This document shows, piece after piece, positions 29,681 to 37,336 of a DNA stretch of 64,000 nt (its first letter is position 1; each line of letters starts with the position of its first letter). Made by a program: the position numbers and the translations under genes. The notes beneath the pieces were generated by a model that ran no database searches, was not told where the DNA came from, and saw only the letters and a list, made by a program, of their open reading frames with translations. Origin of the DNA: Gemmatimonas phototrophica. Lineage in GTDB: Bacteria; Gemmatimonadota; Gemmatimonadetes; Gemmatimonadales; Gemmatimonadaceae. The DNA lies in contig CAMBNV010000004.1 in the NCBI GenBank assembly GCA_945869195.1, positions 186,001 through 250,000 of the forward strand. Direction: 5' to 3'.

Positions 29681-31158
29681 TTCGCCGCGCACACTCCACC
29701 CAGCGCACTTCGTTCATCGCCGTACTCACTGCCGCGCTCCTCACCGCGTCGGCGACGACGCCGCTGACTGCACAACAGGCTCTGTTCGACCGCACGCGGC
29801 CGCCCGCGACCGCCGAGACGCCCCCACTCACCGTCCCTACCGTCTTGGCAAGTCGGCTATCCAATGGGCTAGCCCTGCGTGTCGTCGAGCAACGCGACCT
29901 CCCACTCGTACAGGTAACACTCAGTATCGCCGGCGGTGGACGCCTCGACCGAGACACGCCGGGACTGGCGACCTTTGCCGCCAATCTTATGGACGAAGGC
30001 GCCGGCGCGCGCGATGCCAACGCCTTGCAGTCCGCCCTCGCCTTCCTCGGCGCCTCGCTCTCCACCGGCGCAAACTGGGATGCGACCACCATCTCCCTCA
30101 AGGTCGCGCGCCGCAATCTCGAGGCCGCGCTCGACCTCATGGCCGACGTCGTGTTGCGCCCCACCTTCTCCGCGAGTGAGGTGCGCCGCCAACGCGACCT
30201 CCGTCTTGCCGCACTGTTACAGCAGAAGGACCAGCCCGGGGTGCTCGCGAGTCTCTCGTTTGCCCAGGCGCTCTTCCCCATCGGACATCCCTACCGTCAC
30301 GCGCTCGGCGGTGACTCGACCAGCACGGCGCGTTTCGATTCGACGCTTGTGCGGGAGTTCCATCGGGGCGGCCTCCGACCAGAACGTGCGACCTTCTATA
30401 TCGTTGGTGATCTCTCGGCGGCCGACGCCCAGCGTGTCATCGGTGCACGCTTTCGCAGCTGGGTCGCCACCGGCGCGGAGCGGCAGCCCGCTCCGGTCCT
30501 GGTGACACCAGCTGCACCGCAGGGACGTCAGGTCATTCTCGTCGACAAACCCGGCGCGGCACAGTCGGTCATCATCATCGGGACCACGGGCCTTGAGCGC
30601 ACGAACGCCGACTATGCCGCCGTGGAAGTCATGAACACGATCCTTGGGGGATCGTTCTCCTCGCGGCTCATGACGAATCTGCGCGAAACAAAGGGCTATA
30701 CCTACGGCGCGAGCTCTGGGTTCACCTATCGCCCACTGCCTGGTCCGTTTTCTGTGAGCTCGAGCGTCCGCACCGACGTCAGCGACAGCGCCTTGATTGA
30801 GATTTTCAAGGAACTGCGCGCACTCCGCGAGACCCCGGTGAGCGGGGAGGAACTCGCGCGGGCGAAGGCGTACCTCACGCTCGCCGTGCCCGGCGACCTG
30901 GAGAGCACCTCGCAGATCGCCAGCGAGATGGCCGACCTCGCCAACTGGAACCTCCCGCTCGCGTGGCTGCGCGAGTATGTCACGCGGGTCGGCGCCGTCG
31001 CTGCCGCCGACGTGCAGCGCGTCGCCAAACAACTTCTCCCGTCGGAGAACGCCTACGTCGTTGTTGTTGGCGATTTAGCGCGAATTCAGAGCGGCATTGA
31101 AGCGCTCGCGCTCGGACCCGTCAGCGTTCGCGCGGTCAGTACCATTACGCACGAATGA
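29677..31158 (+). CDS. Secreted M16-family protein lacking the zinc site (partner subunit)
   Basis: A 493-residue M16B protein beginning at a GTG in the GTGA overlap with the catalytic partner. An N-terminal signal is present (FIAVLTAALLTASATTPLTAQ). At the position of HxxEH it has GLATFAANLMDEG, so it cannot bind zinc. The C-terminal substrate-binding pair Arg/Tyr is kept in SSRLMTNLRETKGYTYGASSGF, as in other non-catalytic partners. The tail SENAYVVVVGDLARI is standard. It is likely needed to hold substrate for the subunit encoded upstream. It converges on queF with about 40 bases between stops. Confidence 0.9.
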   Translation: MIRRAHSTQRTSFIAVLTAALLTASATTPLTAQQALFDRTRPPATAETPPLTVPTVLASRLSNGLALRVVEQRDLPLVQVTLSIAGGGRLDRDTPGLATFAANLMDEGAGARDANALQSALAFLGASLSTGANWDATTISLKVARRNLEAALDLMADVVLRPTFSASEVRRQRDLRLAALLQQKDQPGVLASLSFAQALFPIGHPYRHALGGDSTSTARFDSTLVREFHRGGLRPERATFYIVGDLSAADAQRVIGARFRSWVATGAERQPAPVLVTPAAPQGRQVILVDKPGAAQSVIIIGTTGLERTNADYAAVEVMNTILGGSFSSRLMTNLRETKGYTYGASSGFTYRPLPGPFSVSSSVRTDVSDSALIEIFKELRALRETPVSGEELARAKAYLTLAVPGDLESTSQIASEMADLANWNLPLAWLREYVTRVGAVAAADVQRVAKQLLPSENAYVVVVGDLARIQSGIEALALGPVSVRAVSTITHE

Positions 31159-31197
31159 GTCGCGCCGGGATGCGGCGTTTGATGGCCCTTCCTTCCA

Positions 31198-31593
31198 CTA
31201 TCTCGCGGTGGCCTTCTTCACGGTGATGATCGACTTCAATCCACCCCGTACATTGAAATCCCCCACCACCTTCAGCTTGCGCGGCTTCGCCTTCGCCAGA
31301 AGATCGTCGAAGATTCTGTTGACCACCCGCTCGTAGAAAATTCCGTCGTTGCGGAAGCTCCAGAGATAGAGCTTGAGACTTTTCAGTTCTAAGCACTCCA
31401 CGTCCGGGACGTACGAGATGTTGATCGTCGCGAAGTCTGGGGCACCGCCCTTCAGCAGGGCAAGTTCGGCTGCGTCGGACTCAATTCCGCCCAACGGGCA
31501 GAGTGACGTGAACTCCGGTGTGGTCATAAAGATCTCGTAGTCCCGGTCGGCATACGGATTCGGGAACGTCTCGAGCAGCTCTGGTTGCGGCAT
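31198..31593 (-). CDS. queF: NADPH-dependent 7-cyano-7-deazaguanine reductase QueF with an insertion beside the catalytic Cys
   Basis: A 131-residue unimodular QueF that reduces preQ0 to preQ1 in queuosine synthesis. The ATG at 31593 gives the normal start (ETFPNPYADRDYEI). Catalytic C32 lies in FTSLCP, and PDFATINISYVPD and LKSLKLYLWSFRND (the QueF signature) are intact. In typical unimodular QueF the catalytic Cys and Asp are 7 residues apart (CPxTGQPD); here D53 is 21 residues after C32, so 14 extra residues (around GGIESDAAELALLKGG) sit in the active-site loop, in frame. The gene ends the long minus-strand run that includes ddl. No other queuosine gene is visible in the window. Activity is likely but the insertion is unusual. 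Confidence 0.9.
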   Translation of the reverse strand: MPQPELLETFPNPYADRDYEIFMTTPEFTSLCPLGGIESDAAELALLKGGAPDFATINISYVPDVECLELKSLKLYLWSFRNDGIFYERVVNRIFDDLLAKAKPRKLKVVGDFNVRGGLKSIITVKKATAR

Positions 31594-31657
31594 ATCGCGT
31601 GGGGTCTCTGAGGAGGGAGGAACGCGCGGTCGGTGAGAAGGGGGCGACCCCGAGGAG

Positions 31658-32323
31658 TCAGCGCAGCCCGGTGGGGGGCGGAATACGAAGACACAGCCGA
31701 ACATCGCCATGTGTCGCAGTCGCCAACTCGAGCACCGTCGCCCACCGGCGGTCGAGCGCACCCGGCATCTCTGCGTCTTGGAAGGGATGGAGCACAACCT
31801 GCGTCAACGCGCTCGTACGGTGGACGTCCTGCACCAATCGCAGAATCTGCGAATCTGGCGTGTCGGATTGCGCGACGATTACGAGCGCGTGCGGACCGCC
31901 AGCCTCTGCGGCCACCCCAACCGTCCGCATCGCGTTATCCACCGAGGCGTCGCCGGCACCAAGCTCCACCGTGACCTGTGTGAGTGCGAGGAATGGGAGC
32001 AGGGCGACGAGTTCTGCGGGACGCTGGCCGTCGGTGTCGAGCATCACAGGGATCGTCGGCGTCAACTGCGAGAGTGCGGCGAACAGGAATGGGACATTGC
32101 CAAGCACATCGCGCCCACCAATCACAATCGAGTGAAACGTCGAGTGCGACTGCTGTCGCGCGAGTTCGCGCACGAGGGCCGTCGCGATATACATCCTCGC
32201 GGTCTCCGCCTCCCCGGCAAATCGGACGAAGAGTTGCCGTCGACCCGCCCAAGGCCCGAGCGACTGCACGCCCGCCGCGACACCCGAGAGGGCGGCCCCG
32301 ACGACCATCGAGAGATCCCTCAT
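31658..32323 (-). CDS. Conserved-looking protein of unknown function
   Basis: I do not recognise this 221-residue protein. Its start overlaps the ddl stop (ATGA), which supports the frame. It begins with a short hydrophobic stretch (LSMVVGAALSGVAAG) that is weak as a signal, then RRQLFVRFAGEAETARMYIATALVRELARQQ, and a region with alternating strands and helices (FHSIVIGGRDVLGNVPFLFAALSQL, IPVMLDTDGQRPAELVALLPFL, VTVELGAGDASVDNAMRTVG). This could be half of a barrel like that of radical-SAM proteins, but there is no CxxxCxxC motif and only one Cys. It lies between ddl and queF in the same direction. No function is claimed. Confidence 0.6.
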   Translation of the reverse strand: MRDLSMVVGAALSGVAAGVQSLGPWAGRRQLFVRFAGEAETARMYIATALVRELARQQSHSTFHSIVIGGRDVLGNVPFLFAALSQLTPTIPVMLDTDGQRPAELVALLPFLALTQVTVELGAGDASVDNAMRTVGVAAEAGGPHALVIVAQSDTPDSQILRLVQDVHRTSALTQVVLHPFQDAEMPGALDRRWATVLELATATHGDVRLCLRIPPPTGLR

Positions 32324-33270
32324 CCGTGCTCTCCTGTTGACTTGAGCGCGTCGAGCGCGATGCGCTCACACAGTTCGGGAAAGCTGACCCCGTCCGCCTG
32401 CGCTGCTTGCGGCACGAGACTCGTACCCGTCATCCCGGGCAGCGTATTCGCCTCGAGGCAGAACAGCCCTCCATTGGGGTGGAGGCGGAAATCGATTCGC
32501 GCACAGCCGCGCAACTTGAGCGCATCGTAGGCGAGTCGCGTGAGTCGCTGGGCCTCCTCGCGCACGGCCGGGTCGATCGGCGCGGGGAACAGTTCCTCCG
32601 CCATGCCCGGTGTGTACTTGCACTCGTAGTCGTAAATCTCACGCGTCGGGATGATTTCTCCAACCGGCATCATCCAGTCGCCAAGCACTCCGACCGTCAA
32701 CTCCCGCCCCGGAACAAAGGCTTCGAGCATCACCTCGTCATCGTGACGAAATGCCTCGCGCACCGCCACACCCAGGAACGCCGTCTCCTTTACGATACTT
32801 AAACCGACCGTCGACCCTTGCTTCGACGGCTTGACGACGATGGGGAGGCCCAGCGCATGCACCGCGCGGGAGGCGTACTCTGGTGTGCGCCAATCCGGGC
32901 CCTGATCGGTGCGCGCCATCCACCAGTCCGCTGTTGGGACCTTCGCCGCGCGGAAGAGATGCTTCGACAGATCCTTATCCATCGCGATCGCACTCGCGAG
33001 GTGCCCGCTCCCCGTGTACCGCACTCCCGTGAGATCAAACATCGCCTGCATGGTGCCGTCCTCTCCGGTACCGCCATGCAGTGCCATCCAGACGACATCC
33101 GCGGCCTTCGCCGCCGGTAGTATCGCGAGTGGATCACCCGCCGGATCCGCCTCGGTGACGAAATGTCCACGCGCCACCAGCGCCGCGGACACGCGCCTAC
33201 CGCTCGAGAGCGAGACCTCCCGCTCAGAGGAGTCACCGCCCTGCAGGACGAGGATTTTGAGCGGCGACAT
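32320..33270 (-). CDS. ddl: D-alanine--D-alanine ligase
   Basis: A 316-residue ATP-grasp enzyme making the D-Ala-D-Ala of peptidoglycan precursors. The ATG at 33270 starts KILVLQGGDSSEREVSLSSGR, the normal N-terminus. Other marks are VVWMALHGGTGEDGTMQAMFDL, YTGSGHLASAIAMDKDLSKHLF, LPIVVKPSKQGSTVGLS, MLEAFVPGRELTVGVLG and the metal site GCARIDFRLHPNGGLFCLEANTLPGMT. It follows the cystathionine beta-synthase gene after one base and overlaps the unknown gene by four, within the minus-strand run. No other mur/fts gene is nearby. Confidence 0.95.
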   Translation of the reverse strand: MSPLKILVLQGGDSSEREVSLSSGRRVSAALVARGHFVTEADPAGDPLAILPAAKAADVVWMALHGGTGEDGTMQAMFDLTGVRYTGSGHLASAIAMDKDLSKHLFRAAKVPTADWWMARTDQGPDWRTPEYASRAVHALGLPIVVKPSKQGSTVGLSIVKETAFLGVAVREAFRHDDEVMLEAFVPGRELTVGVLGDWMMPVGEIIPTREIYDYECKYTPGMAEELFPAPIDPAVREEAQRLTRLAYDALKLRGCARIDFRLHPNGGLFCLEANTLPGMTGTSLVPQAAQADGVSFPELCERIALDALKSTGEHG

Positions 33271-33271
33271 G

Positions 33272-34669
33272 TTAGCGCGCCATGAGGAACTGGAGCAGGT
33301 CGGATCGCGTGAGGATCCCCTGCACGGTCCCATGGTCGCGCACGAGCACCGCCGGATTGTTGCGACCAAGCATCTTGACCGCGGCATCCACCGGCATCGC
33401 CGTGTCCACGACTGGGAATGGCGAGTCCATCACGTCGCTCACACTGCGCTCGAGCACCTTGGTGTCCTCGAGCCCACGCACACTCAAGACGCTCTCGCTC
33501 ACCGACCCCACGCAGTTCGCGCCATCCATCACCGGCAGCTGCGACACGTTGTGGAAGCTCATCAGCCCGAGCGCCTGGCGCACCGACGCGCCCGGCCCGG
33601 TGCTCACGAGCGCCGGAATCTCTCCACCCTTCGCCGAGAGCAGCTGGCCGAGCGTCATCTTCTCCGCATCGAGCATCTGGTTCTCCCGCATCCACTCCTC
33701 ATTGTAGAGCTTTGACAGATACCGCTCGCCCGTGTCGCAGAGCACCGTCACCACACACGCCTCAGGGTCGTTGATCCGCCGTGCGACGTTCAACGCCGCG
33801 TGGGCGATCAACCCCGCGGAGCCGCCCACAAAGAGGCCTTCTTCCCGCGTGAGTCGACGCGCCAGGGCGAACGCGTCGTGGTCGCTCACCGTCTGGTATT
33901 CATCGATCAACGAGAGGTCGAGTGCGCCAGGCAGCTTGTCCTGTCCGATGCCCTCCACCTTGTACGGCGACCCCTGTGGTTTGTTCGCCCCGTTGGACCG
34001 CCACACTTCAGCTAAGATCGACCCCATCGGGTCGGCACCGACGATCTGCACCTTTGGGTTCTTTTCTTTCAGATAGCGACCGACACCGGAGATCGTCCCG
34101 CCCGTCCCCGCGCCGGCGACAAAGTGCGTGATGGTACCATTCGTCTGCTCCCAGAGCTCGGGACCCGTCGTCTCGTAGTGGGCCGTGGGGTTCGTCATGT
34201 TGTAAAACTGGTTCGCGAGCACGGCATTCGGTGTCTCCCCAGCGATCCGCTTTGCCATCGACGTGTAGCTGTCCGGATGATCAGGGGGCACGGCCGTCGG
34301 CGTGATAATCACCTCGGCGCCGAACGCCTTGAGCAGTCGCACCTTCTCCTGCGACATCTTGTCTGGCATCGTGAAGATACATTTGTATCCCTTGAGCCCC
34401 GCCGCGATCGCGAGCCCCACACCCGTGTTGCCGCTCGTGCTCTCGACGATCGTCCCGCCCGGCTTGAGCTGCCCCGTGCGCTCGAACTCCTCGATCATCG
34501 GGAGTCCGATCCGATCTTTCACACTTCCGCCCGGATTGAAAAACTCCGCCTTGCCGTAGACCGGCGTGCGGATTCCCTGCGTCACCCGCGTGAGTCGGAT
34601 GAGCGGAGTCCACCCAATCGTCTCGAGGACGTTCGCGTACGGCTGGCGGTGGCGAATATGGTCGGTCAT
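33272..34669 (-). CDS. Cystathionine beta-synthase (PLP core plus CBS domains)
   Basis: A 465-residue PLP enzyme. Residues 1-320 are a fold-type II core with the cofactor Lys in FFNPGGSVKDRIGL, the phosphate loops STSGNTGVGLA and GAGTGGTISGVGRYLKE, and EGLFVGGSAGLIAHAAL. Residues 340-465 contain two CBS domains (PALVSTGPGASVRQALGLMSFHNVSQLPVMD and FPVVDTAMPVDAAVKMLGRNNPAVLVRDHG), which in related enzymes bind adenosyl ligands for regulation. With this architecture the reaction is condensation of serine and homocysteine to cystathionine; cysteine-synthase activity is possible. It has 27 bases to mutS upstream and one base to ddl downstream. Confidence 0.93.
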   Translation of the reverse strand: MTDHIRHRQPYANVLETIGWTPLIRLTRVTQGIRTPVYGKAEFFNPGGSVKDRIGLPMIEEFERTGQLKPGGTIVESTSGNTGVGLAIAAGLKGYKCIFTMPDKMSQEKVRLLKAFGAEVIITPTAVPPDHPDSYTSMAKRIAGETPNAVLANQFYNMTNPTAHYETTGPELWEQTNGTITHFVAGAGTGGTISGVGRYLKEKNPKVQIVGADPMGSILAEVWRSNGANKPQGSPYKVEGIGQDKLPGALDLSLIDEYQTVSDHDAFALARRLTREEGLFVGGSAGLIAHAALNVARRINDPEACVVTVLCDTGERYLSKLYNEEWMRENQMLDAEKMTLGQLLSAKGGEIPALVSTGPGASVRQALGLMSFHNVSQLPVMDGANCVGSVSESVLSVRGLEDTKVLERSVSDVMDSPFPVVDTAMPVDAAVKMLGRNNPAVLVRDHGTVQGILTRSDLLQFLMAR

Positions 34670-34696
34670 GGTCGGGGCGTGAGGGATGTCGCGAAT

Positions 34697-37336
34697 CTAC
34701 CGTCGCGCCCGCGCGGCGGCCGCCAGTTCGGCGAGGAGGGAGAGCGCCTGCAACGGCGTGAGGGCGTCGATGTCGACACCCTGGAGACGCTCGACCAGTG
34801 GGTCTGGCACTGGAGCGGCGAACAGGTCGAACTCATCCCCGGCCGGCTCCTCGCGACGCGCCGGCACGAGCTGCTCGCTCTCGAGCACCTTCAGGAGGGC
34901 GCGCGCGCGCGCGATGACCGGCGCCGGCAGCCCCGCAATCCGACCCACTTCGATCCCGTACGATCGATCGGCGCCGCCGGGCCTGAGTCGGTGCAAAAAG
35001 AGGATGCGCTCCTCCACCTCCTGCACGGCCACGTTGTAGTTGCGCACCGAAGAGAACTCGTCCGCGAGCTGCGTAAGCTCGTGGTAGTGCGTCGCGAAGA
35101 CCGTCCTGCAGCCCACGCGCTCGTGCAGGTGCTCGCTCACCGCCCACGCGATCGAGAGTCCGTCCCAGGTCGCGGTGCCTCGCCCGATCTCGTCGAGCAA
35201 CACAAGGCTTCGGGCCGTTGCGGTGTGCAGGATCGCGCTCGTTTCTGACATTTCGACCATGAAGGTCGACTGCCCGCGCACGAGGTTGTCGCTCGCTCCC
35301 ACGCGCGTGAATACGCGGTCCGCGATGCCCACGCGCGCCGACGTCGCCGGCACATAACTCCCCATCTGCGCCATCAGCACCAGGAGGCCGATTTGTCGCA
35401 GGATGGTGCTTTTCCCCGCCATGTTGGGGCCCGTGAGGATGATCATTCGTGCCTCGGGCGCGAGTGACACATCGTTCGGGATGAACTGATCACGTGGCAT
35501 CATCCGCTCCACCACCGGATGCCGACCCCGCACAATCGCGAGCGTTGGTCCGTCGTCCACCACTGGCCGCACATACCCCTCGCGCGCGGCCACCTCGGCG
35601 AGCGCGGCCAGCACGTCGAGCTGTGCGCACCGCTGCGCCACCGCCTGCAACCGCGCGACCTGCGCCCCGATGCGCGCGCGCACCGCCTCAAACAGTTCGC
35701 GTTCGAGCGTTTCCATTCGCTCGGTCGCATGCAACACCTTCTCCTCAAACTCCTTGAGCGCCGGCGTGATGTAGCGCTCCGCCCCGGTCAACGTCTGCCG
35801 TCGCTGGTAATCGGTCGGCACCAGATCCTTGTTCGCATTCGTGATCTCGATGTAGTACCCGAATACCCGGTTGTAGCCAACCTTGAGGGAGTGAATCCCC
35901 GTCCGCGCGCGCTCCTCTGCCTGGAGCGCGGCAATCGCGTCCTTCCCGCCCGTCGCAATCGCCCGCAGAGCGTCCAGCGGACCGTCCACGCCGGGGGCGA
36001 TCGTTTCGCCGTCGCCGAATGCGACCGGCGGCCGTGCCACGAGCGTCTCCTGGATCGTTGCGCTCAACTCCGCCGTATCATCCCACGCCTCGGCGATCTG
36101 ACACAGCCCGCCGGCGAGCGTTGTCCGGCGCAGCGCCGCCGCGACCGATGGCAGCCGCGCGAGCGAATCACCCAACGCGCGGAGGTCGCGTGGTGTCGCG
36201 CGTCCAGCCGCGGTGCGGCCCGCGAGGCGCTCAACATCGCGCACCCCATCAAGTGCCTCGCGCAGCGCGGCCCGCGTGAGCGCGTCCGTGAAGAGTGCGG
36301 TCACCGCATCGAGCCTCGCATCGATCGCCGGCACGTCGGTGAGTGGCGCGAGGATCCAGTGGCGCAGGAGGCGCGCGCCCATCGGGGTCTGCGTTCGGTC
36401 GAGCACGCCGAGCAACGTGCCGCTCGTATCAGGACTCGTCTCCGTGCTTGTACGCAGCGACTCCACGAGCTCGAGGTTGCGGCGGGTCATTTCGTCGAGC
36501 GGCATCGTCCCACCGGGTCGTTCCACCACCGGCCGCGCGAGATGGGGCAGCCCGCCGGGCTGCAGCTCCCGCAGGTAGCGCAGGAGTGCTCCCGCGGCCC
36601 CAACGACAACGGCATCCGCACCACCAATCCCGAACCCCTCGAGTGACTGCACGCCGAACTGCGCTGCAAGCGTGTCCTCCGCAAGCGCGGACTCGAACTC
36701 CCACCGCTCTCGTGTCGTTACCAGGCCGCCGGTTGCCCCCGCGAGGCGAGCGGCCACGGACTCCCCGCGGTCAGTCGGGGGACCACCTCCGGCCATCGAT
36801 TCCGCCGTGCGCCCAATCAACACCTCGCGCGGCACAAGCCGCGCAAGCGCTGCTTCGGCATCACCGGTGGCGCAGCGGATGAGGCGCAGTTCGCCCGTGG
36901 AGAGATCGGCCGCCGCAATCCCCACCTCCGCGCCGACCGCCTGTATGGCACAGAGAAAGTTGTTGCGCCTGCCCTCGAGCAGGTCGTCGCTAAACGCTGC
37001 TCCTGGAGTGATCGTCTCGACCACCGCGCGTTTGACAATCCCTTTCGCGAGCTTCGGGTCCTCGATCTGCTCGCAGATTGCCACCCGGAACCCCTGCTGT
37101 ACCAGCCGACGGAGATACTCCGATGCCGCCTTGACCGGTACGCCCGCGAGCGGCACCTCAGCGCCGCCACCATTATTGCGCGACGTGAGCGTGAGATCGA
37201 GCACGCGGGCCGCCGTCTCGGCGTCCTCGTAGAACATCTCGTAGAAGTCGCCCATCCGGAAGAACAGGATCGCGTTCGGGTGCCGCGCCTTGATCTCCCG
37301 GTACTGCAGCATGAGCGGCGTCGCGCTGGCACTCAC
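34697..37336 (-). CDS. mutS: DNA mismatch repair protein MutS
   Basis: An 879-residue MutS. The mismatch-recognition FxE is in FRMGDFYEMFYEDAE near residues 25-33 (the start TPLMLQYREIKARHPNAILFF is canonical). The clamp and lever region has FGYYIEITNANKDLVPTDYQRRQTL. The ATPase shows Walker A GPNMAGKSTILRQIGLL near residue 634, SDNLVRGQSTFMVEMSET, Walker B LVLLDEIGRGTATWDGLS, and FATHYHELTQL. The C-terminus holds the helical dimerisation segment. It overlaps the upstream SPOR gene by ATGA. Length and domains are those of a standard repair MutS, not MutS2. No mutL is in the window. Confidence 0.97.
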   Translation of the reverse strand: MSASATPLMLQYREIKARHPNAILFFRMGDFYEMFYEDAETAARVLDLTLTSRNNGGGAEVPLAGVPVKAASEYLRRLVQQGFRVAICEQIEDPKLAKGIVKRAVVETITPGAAFSDDLLEGRRNNFLCAIQAVGAEVGIAAADLSTGELRLIRCATGDAEAALARLVPREVLIGRTAESMAGGGPPTDRGESVAARLAGATGGLVTTRERWEFESALAEDTLAAQFGVQSLEGFGIGGADAVVVGAAGALLRYLRELQPGGLPHLARPVVERPGGTMPLDEMTRRNLELVESLRTSTETSPDTSGTLLGVLDRTQTPMGARLLRHWILAPLTDVPAIDARLDAVTALFTDALTRAALREALDGVRDVERLAGRTAAGRATPRDLRALGDSLARLPSVAAALRRTTLAGGLCQIAEAWDDTAELSATIQETLVARPPVAFGDGETIAPGVDGPLDALRAIATGGKDAIAALQAEERARTGIHSLKVGYNRVFGYYIEITNANKDLVPTDYQRRQTLTGAERYITPALKEFEEKVLHATERMETLERELFEAVRARIGAQVARLQAVAQRCAQLDVLAALAEVAAREGYVRPVVDDGPTLAIVRGRHPVVERMMPRDQFIPNDVSLAPEARMIILTGPNMAGKSTILRQIGLLVLMAQMGSYVPATSARVGIADRVFTRVGASDNLVRGQSTFMVEMSETSAILHTATARSLVLLDEIGRGTATWDGLSIAWAVSEHLHERVGCRTVFATHYHELTQLADEFSSVRNYNVAVQEVEERILFLHRLRPGGADRSYGIEVGRIAGLPAPVIARARALLKVLESEQLVPARREEPAGDEFDLFAAPVPDPLVERLQGVDIDALTPLQALSLLAELAAAARARR

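Follow-up and report, generated by a model that had tools for sequence, protein, structure and literature searches.

QueF is described as carrying out the only known biological nitrile reduction (PMC5372742, cited here and below from the available part of its text). In the window, which is the whole stretch of 64,000 nucleotides from Gemmatimonas phototrophica analysed here, the queF gene encodes a protein with a lengthened segment between the catalytic Cys and Asp. The initial annotation read this segment either as a tolerated surface loop or as a changed substrate pocket, and suspected that the gene next door might be related to it. The question raised by this locus is therefore whether such an enzyme is still a preQ0 reductase, and what the additional residues could do in it.

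Assignment of the window protein and place of the insert

The minus-strand ORF 31593-31198 translates cleanly into 131 residues, bearing out the earlier claim that the extra segment lies in frame (Table 1). The protein scored 154 bits against the QueF-II model TIGR03139 (NCBIfam, cut-off 86.9) and 105.5 bits against PF14489 (Pfam, cut-off 27.3). A second, weaker PF14489 match in the genome is FolE, so that the window gene is the sole QueF found in this genome. In the available part of PMC5372742, the selection features named for QueF are Cys55, Asp62 and Glu97 of Bacillus subtilis QueF together with the motif E(S/L)K(S/A)hK(L/Y)(Y/F/W), spacing not being among them. The corresponding columns C32, D53 and E88 are invariant in 86/86 distinct QueF from outside the family, and Cys32 and Asp53 also in 70/70 distinct QueF of the family; Glu88, the equivalent of Glu97, would by homology anchor preQ0. 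The single T-fold domain of fewer than 200 residues that defines QueF-II was likewise found (131 aa, Z 18.8 to 4f8b_A). Judged by score, signature residues, motif and single T-fold, the window protein is a unimodular QueF (QueF-II).

Table 1. Features of the queF locus, with positions counted from the first letter of the window
Feature	Position	Strand	Basis
queF, unimodular 7-cyano-7-deazaguanine (preQ0) reductase, 131 aa, with 14-aa insert	31198..31593	minus	TIGR03139, PF14489, structure match
Catalytic Cys32, equivalent to B. subtilis Cys55, thioimide former	31498..31500	minus	Alignment; role from PMC5372742 (available part)
Insert GGIESDAAELALLK, residues 35-48, followed by G49 and G50	31450..31491	minus	Gap against PDB sequences, conservation, model
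Asp53, equivalent to B. subtilis Asp62	31435..31437	minus	Alignment
QueF motif ELKSLKLY, residues 69-76, NADPH-binding	31366..31389	minus	Fits the motif in PMC5372742 (available part)
Tyr87-Glu88, helix start (model helix 87-102)	31330..31335	minus	Alignment and model
P0002, read as a QueE-like protein without Fe-S cysteines	31658..32323	minus	64 bp upstream of queF; profile comparison

B. subtilis QueF, also of the QueF-II class (PDB 4F8B, 4FGC and 5UDG), shares the T-fold, the Cys/Asp/Glu set and the QueF motif with the window protein, at 46-48% identity over 116-117 aligned residues. The window protein differs from it by 14 extra residues past the catalytic Cys, Tyr instead of His before the substrate Glu, the Val or Ala that the family has in place of Cys99, and a shorter C-terminal end. 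Archaeal QueF-Like (PDB 5JYX and 5K0P), which makes archaeosine from preQ0 in tRNA (PMC5485725, available part), has the same fold (Z 16.1) at 17-18% identity. An identity with this archaeosine synthase was rejected: comparison with QueF-Like gives 17-18% identity and Z 15-16, comparison with B. subtilis QueF 46-48% and Z 17-19.

Cys32 and Asp53 are 21 positions apart with 20 residues between them, versus 6 in ordinary QueF. Against the B. subtilis-type structures 4f8b, 5udg and 4fgc, the alignment over residues 4-120 contains a single gap of 14 residues, just after the catalytic Cys-Pro, with boundaries that depend on the alignment (34-47 or 35-48). The unusual Cys-Asp spacing first read from the letters is thus real. 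An AlphaFold2 model (58 sequences, monomer) gave a T-fold with a mean pLDDT of 88.1 and a pTM of 0.84, and in structure comparison it came closest to 4f8b_A, B. subtilis QueF captured as the thioimide, with Z 18.8 and an rmsd of 1.5 over 117 residues. Within the insert the model places a short helix at residues 41-46, with pLDDT values (69 for residues 31-40, 61 for 41-50) that are among the least certain of the model. In the family pattern GGxExDAx[ED]LxxLxGG, the first glycines could serve as a hinge, the acidic residues as a helix cap, and the last glycines as the end of a short helix.

Distribution and conservation of the insert

QueF matches were found in 150 of the 298 genomes of a phylum sample, comprising 92 genomes of Gemmatimonadaceae, the family of the window, and 58 of other families; 11 further Gemmatimonadaceae genomes of this sample were without a QueF match. 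The 92 family genomes contained 94 matches, and in every one (94/94) the matched part was as long as that of the query, so that no family match shows loss of the insert. A spacing of 20 was read in 52/52 loci from family genomes, a set that includes the window gene twice, and in 23/24 loci of a second genome collection; in the remaining one (L102) a stretch of N interrupts the insert. Some genomes are common to both sets. The insert was absent from all 19 QueF fetched from sister families (19 of the 58 with a match), each with a spacing of 6, and from the 80 loci kept of 309 IMG/VR relatives, with a spacing of 6 (79) or 7 (1). When these two groups were pooled, 6 residues separated Cys from Asp in 98/99 and 7 in 1/99. 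The comparison of Gemmatimonadota and outgroup QueF suggested in the initial annotation shows that, as far as sampled, the insert is fixed in Gemmatimonadaceae and absent from sister families, and is a molecular marker of the family. Two QueF matches each were seen in two family genomes, G276 (C114 and C50, both residues 1-126) and G258 (C239 and C109, one of them short, 1-99), and none in G171 and G248, two genomes of the same genus that are 98% and 96% complete.

A DNA pattern scan over 84,980 species (one genome each) gave 24 matches, all in Gemmatimonadota and 7 of them in Gemmatimonadaceae. The pattern was E-[FY]-..-C-P-x-G-G-x-[ED]; at one wobble base A or T was required, to keep down the number of chance matches. 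The scan was partial by design, the variant pattern being present in 7/51 family loci and its last codon relaxed for the scan, and inserts of other sequence would be missed. In IMG/VR the pattern with the family spacing had 0 matches, and the pattern with the spacing of halovirus QueF (discussed below) found 3 contigs, identical to the three found with the halovirus protein. QueF matches also occurred in 46 plasmid and 29 phage records, and a plasmid search with the protein of halovirus HVTV-1 returned 37 records; the residue-level reading covers five plasmid or phage QueF and one haloarchaeal QueF-like protein.

Conservation was assessed on 70 distinct family proteins, with identical ones merged and L102 dropped because of its N run. 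G35, G36, E38, D40, L44 and L47 are invariant in this set, which amounts to 6/14 inserted positions, and so are the flanking G49 and G50. Position 41 varies once and 43 is Glu or Asp, while 37, 39, 42, 45, 46 and 48 are variable. The mean entropy of the insert (0.78 bits) is not below that of the rest of residues 5-125 (0.62 bits), indicating a mixture of fixed and free positions rather than a uniformly frozen segment. Given that up to about 30% of residues differ between family QueF and the window protein, these patterns are signs of selection on the insert, and the invariant positions suggest an integral active-site flap in preference to a random loop. Outside the insert, W78, D83, Y87, R89, K120 and S121 are among the residues that never vary in the family but that few of the 86 distinct other QueF have. 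D83, Y87 and R89 are close in sequence to Glu88, several of these residues lie near the start of the Glu88-bearing helix, and the Tyr87 position is His in 56/86 distinct non-family QueF. The window protein thus represents a genuine variant, shared across its family, of a well-known enzyme, with an insert whose role lends itself to experiment.

Activity of the enzyme and role of the lengthened loop

The genome of the window also contains FolE (L002), two PTPS-family genes (QueD family), QueE, QueC, Tgt and QueA. With the signature residues intact and the looked-for Q-pathway genes present, a changed substrate is without support, and the most likely reaction, as far as homology indicates, is the unchanged NADPH-dependent conversion of preQ0 to preQ1. 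Very probably the protein is active as a preQ0 reductase, and its insert is structured and under selection. Going a step further, we regard it as probably a working, ordinary QueF-II of the queuosine pathway whose Cys-Asp loop, longer by 14 residues, would form a lineage-specific flap. Neither a structure nor an assay was found for any insert-bearing QueF of Gemmatimonadaceae, and the titles and abstract starts listed in literature searches included no paper on an insert in QueF or on the neighbour P0002. Overexpression of B. subtilis queF made E. coli resistant to perchlorate, whereas that of its own queF did not (PMC8343002), and the available part of that paper makes no mention of an insert.

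Loop growth may have happened once, in the ancestor of Gemmatimonadaceae. In QueF the active site is located where two subunits meet. At the mouth of this site the insert would form a short helix with an N-cap and Gly-Gly hinges (GGxExDAxxLxxLxGG). Acting as a flap, or as a clamp on the interface, it might shut over the thioimide and imine intermediates and keep the catalytic thiol shielded; such a specific flap or shield role is put forward tentatively, as a possibility that falls somewhat short of even chances. Substrate-binding loops are reported to rearrange between apo and preQ0-bound QueF (PMC5372742). In B. subtilis QueF a disulfide of Cys99 protects the catalytic Cys; about 61% of unimodular QueF have Cys99, and about 83% have a back-door Cys of some kind (PMC5372742). 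Gemmatimonadaceae have Val or Ala at the Cys99 position, with Cys in 0/69 distinct family sequences that have a letter there, and Ser or Ala at that of the alternative Cys53. Since the family is without both protective Cys, shielding or stabilisation by a flap would be a natural role. Loss of Cys99 was rejected as the sole reason for the insert, because other QueF without Cys99, those of sister families included, have no such insert; 43/86 distinct other QueF also lack Cys99, and among these the long loop occurs only in haloviruses.

In the QueF of haloviruses HVTV-1 and HCTV-5 (Druskaviridae), 21 residues separate Cys from Asp, versus 20 here, owing to an insertion of 15 residues in the very place where the family has its own; a further, short insertion follows later in the protein (L073:244-705, L078:244-705). 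These proteins share 36-38% identity with the window QueF. By eye, the halovirus insert can be aligned gap-free from G36 to D53, with G-[IV]-[ED]-x-D-A in common near its start, but apart from this it is acidic and lacks the Leu and Gly-Gly positions. HVTV-1 QueF falls under the TIGR03139 cut-off (78.3 vs 86.9 bits). In HVTV-1 DNA about 30% of G is dPreQ1, and the authors left open whether the base or the DNA is the target of the enzyme (PMC6884629, available part). The occurrence of a long-loop QueF together with dPreQ1 in the same virus suggests, by analogy, that an insert of near-equal length is compatible with QueF activity, the dPreQ1 having been measured in viral DNA and not from purified enzyme, and the halovirus protein differing from that of the window in many other respects. 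The initial annotation would have dropped its interest in the insertion if the same one occurred in a characterised, active QueF; none with the very same insert was found, and the near-equal insert of a virus with dPreQ1 in its DNA comes closest. In trees over 113 columns, a clade uniting the family and the haloviruses was not rejected (AU p 0.32), and the tree with a family-only clade had a log-likelihood 2.8 above that of the free tree found, which put three long-branch rows without the insert (L033, L134 and L139) among the family. A common origin of the family and halovirus inserts is neither shown nor rejected.

Several other explanations could account for the insert. A neutral surface loop, tolerated by the fold and kept by common descent only, would fit its loop position, its low model confidence, the freely variable positions 42, 45 and 48, a mean entropy no lower than in the rest of the protein, and the fact that insertion at the same site has occurred at least once elsewhere, in haloviruses. 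Six of the 14 positions are nevertheless invariant in 70 distinct proteins and no length variant occurs among 94 matches, despite up to about 30% divergence, which makes neutrality quite unlikely; an artefact or pseudogene has a negligible chance, as the insert is found in many assemblies of two collections, with the same spacing in 52/52 and 23/24 loci and no internal stop in the 94 family matches as listed. It is unlikely, too, that the insert mediates contacts between pentamers or subunits in place of the metal-binding C-terminal tail of B. subtilis QueF, whose pentamers are joined via these tails (PMC5372742): the family protein ends soon after the T-fold, and roughly one turn of helix separates the invariant L44 from L47, yet the sister-family QueF that were read are without tail and without insert alike.

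The insert might also admit a changed substrate or partner, such as bulky preQ0 (nucleotide, tRNA- or DNA-bound) or a docking protein of the Q pathway. Its position on the catalytic loop, the family-specific residues by the pocket, and the sole other inserted lineage found, a virus group with one member carrying dPreQ1 DNA (PMC6884629) and with an insert that by eye can be aligned gap-free with that of the family, are in line with this. Such a change is improbable all the same, given a Q pathway with Tgt and QueA, a single QueF found in the genome, and a QueE-like P0002 that BLAST did not find in 51/99 family genomes. A bolder version, in which a QueF sub-type with a longer catalytic loop takes preQ0 on nucleotide, tRNA or DNA or receives it from a partner, haloviruses gained the same device and P0002 takes part in the hand-over in about half of the family, seems very improbable. 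Of the two readings in the initial annotation, the tolerated loop is disfavoured by the six invariant positions and the flanking G49 and G50; the changed pocket keeps the location of the insert on the catalytic loop and the distinct D83, Y87 and R89 near Glu88, with no sign of a changed substrate. The preferred reading is an ordinary preQ0 reductase with a lineage-specific flap. This natural and family-wide lengthening of the catalytic loop offers a ready-made experiment on the function of that loop, be it to close on the intermediates, to guard the thiol or to hold subunits together.

The neighbour gene P0002

The profile of the P0002 family resembles that of QueE (7-carboxy-7-deazaguanine synthase) over 170 columns, including the N-terminal QGEG..G region (hhalign: probability 82.2%, E 1e-5, score 42.4 vs a shuffle maximum of 22.6, with 0/200 column shuffles as high). 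The cluster cysteines of QueE are missing, however, with no cysteine motif in 20/20 aligned P0002 proteins. Pfam Radical_SAM matched weakly in 7/20 orthologues (best E 1.7e-5), whereas P0002 itself has no Pfam or NCBIfam match, Radical_SAM included, and the NCBIfam QueE models reached at best E 0.072 in 1/20 members. Single QueE sequences scored 17-30, while ten other proteins reached 12-20, and PflA and NrdG 17. A PDB profile search with the family had its best hit in methionine synthase (E 0.054) and did not find QueE, and the P0002 profile had no second match in its own genome at E up to 10, the QueE of that genome included. A single-sequence model (pLDDT 56.6, matching NifB and other barrels) was set aside as too poor to use, and Rfam at gathering scores had no match in 30900-34800. 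P0002 is read here, from profile likeness, as a QueE-like protein without radical chemistry and with a possible ancestry among radical-SAM proteins. The true QueE of the genome, of the Cx14CxxC type, lies beside QueC (L213:1495-2124; G000:C1:200934-202133).

Orthologues of P0002 were found by BLAST in 48/99 family genomes (orthologues in L107-L125). The idea that P0002 is required for the insert was rejected, since it occurs in 48/99 genomes while every family QueF match (94/94) has the insert, which is accordingly independent of P0002. The suspected relation between the two genes is thus untied from the insert; a relation through the Q pathway is plausible given the QueE likeness, and a P0002-type protein without cluster cysteines might represent a second, unnamed piece of Q-pathway genetics in Gemmatimonadaceae. 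Among 74 loci examined, P0002 lies upstream of queF in 36/36 that hold both genes, a count in which some genomes appear twice and two rows are the window. The interval between the genes is 0.9-1.35 kb in the 34 non-window loci and 64 bp in the window (31593 to 31658), which leaves no room there for a rhomboid-like + DUF6576 gene. A rhomboid-type membrane ORF was recognised by eye in 13 inspected intervals (e.g. L079:3129-4082 and L088:850-1782); the L088 ORF passes the cut-off of the Pfam Rhomboid model, that of L079 fails it (19.3 vs 22.6 bits), and both pass that of DUF6576.
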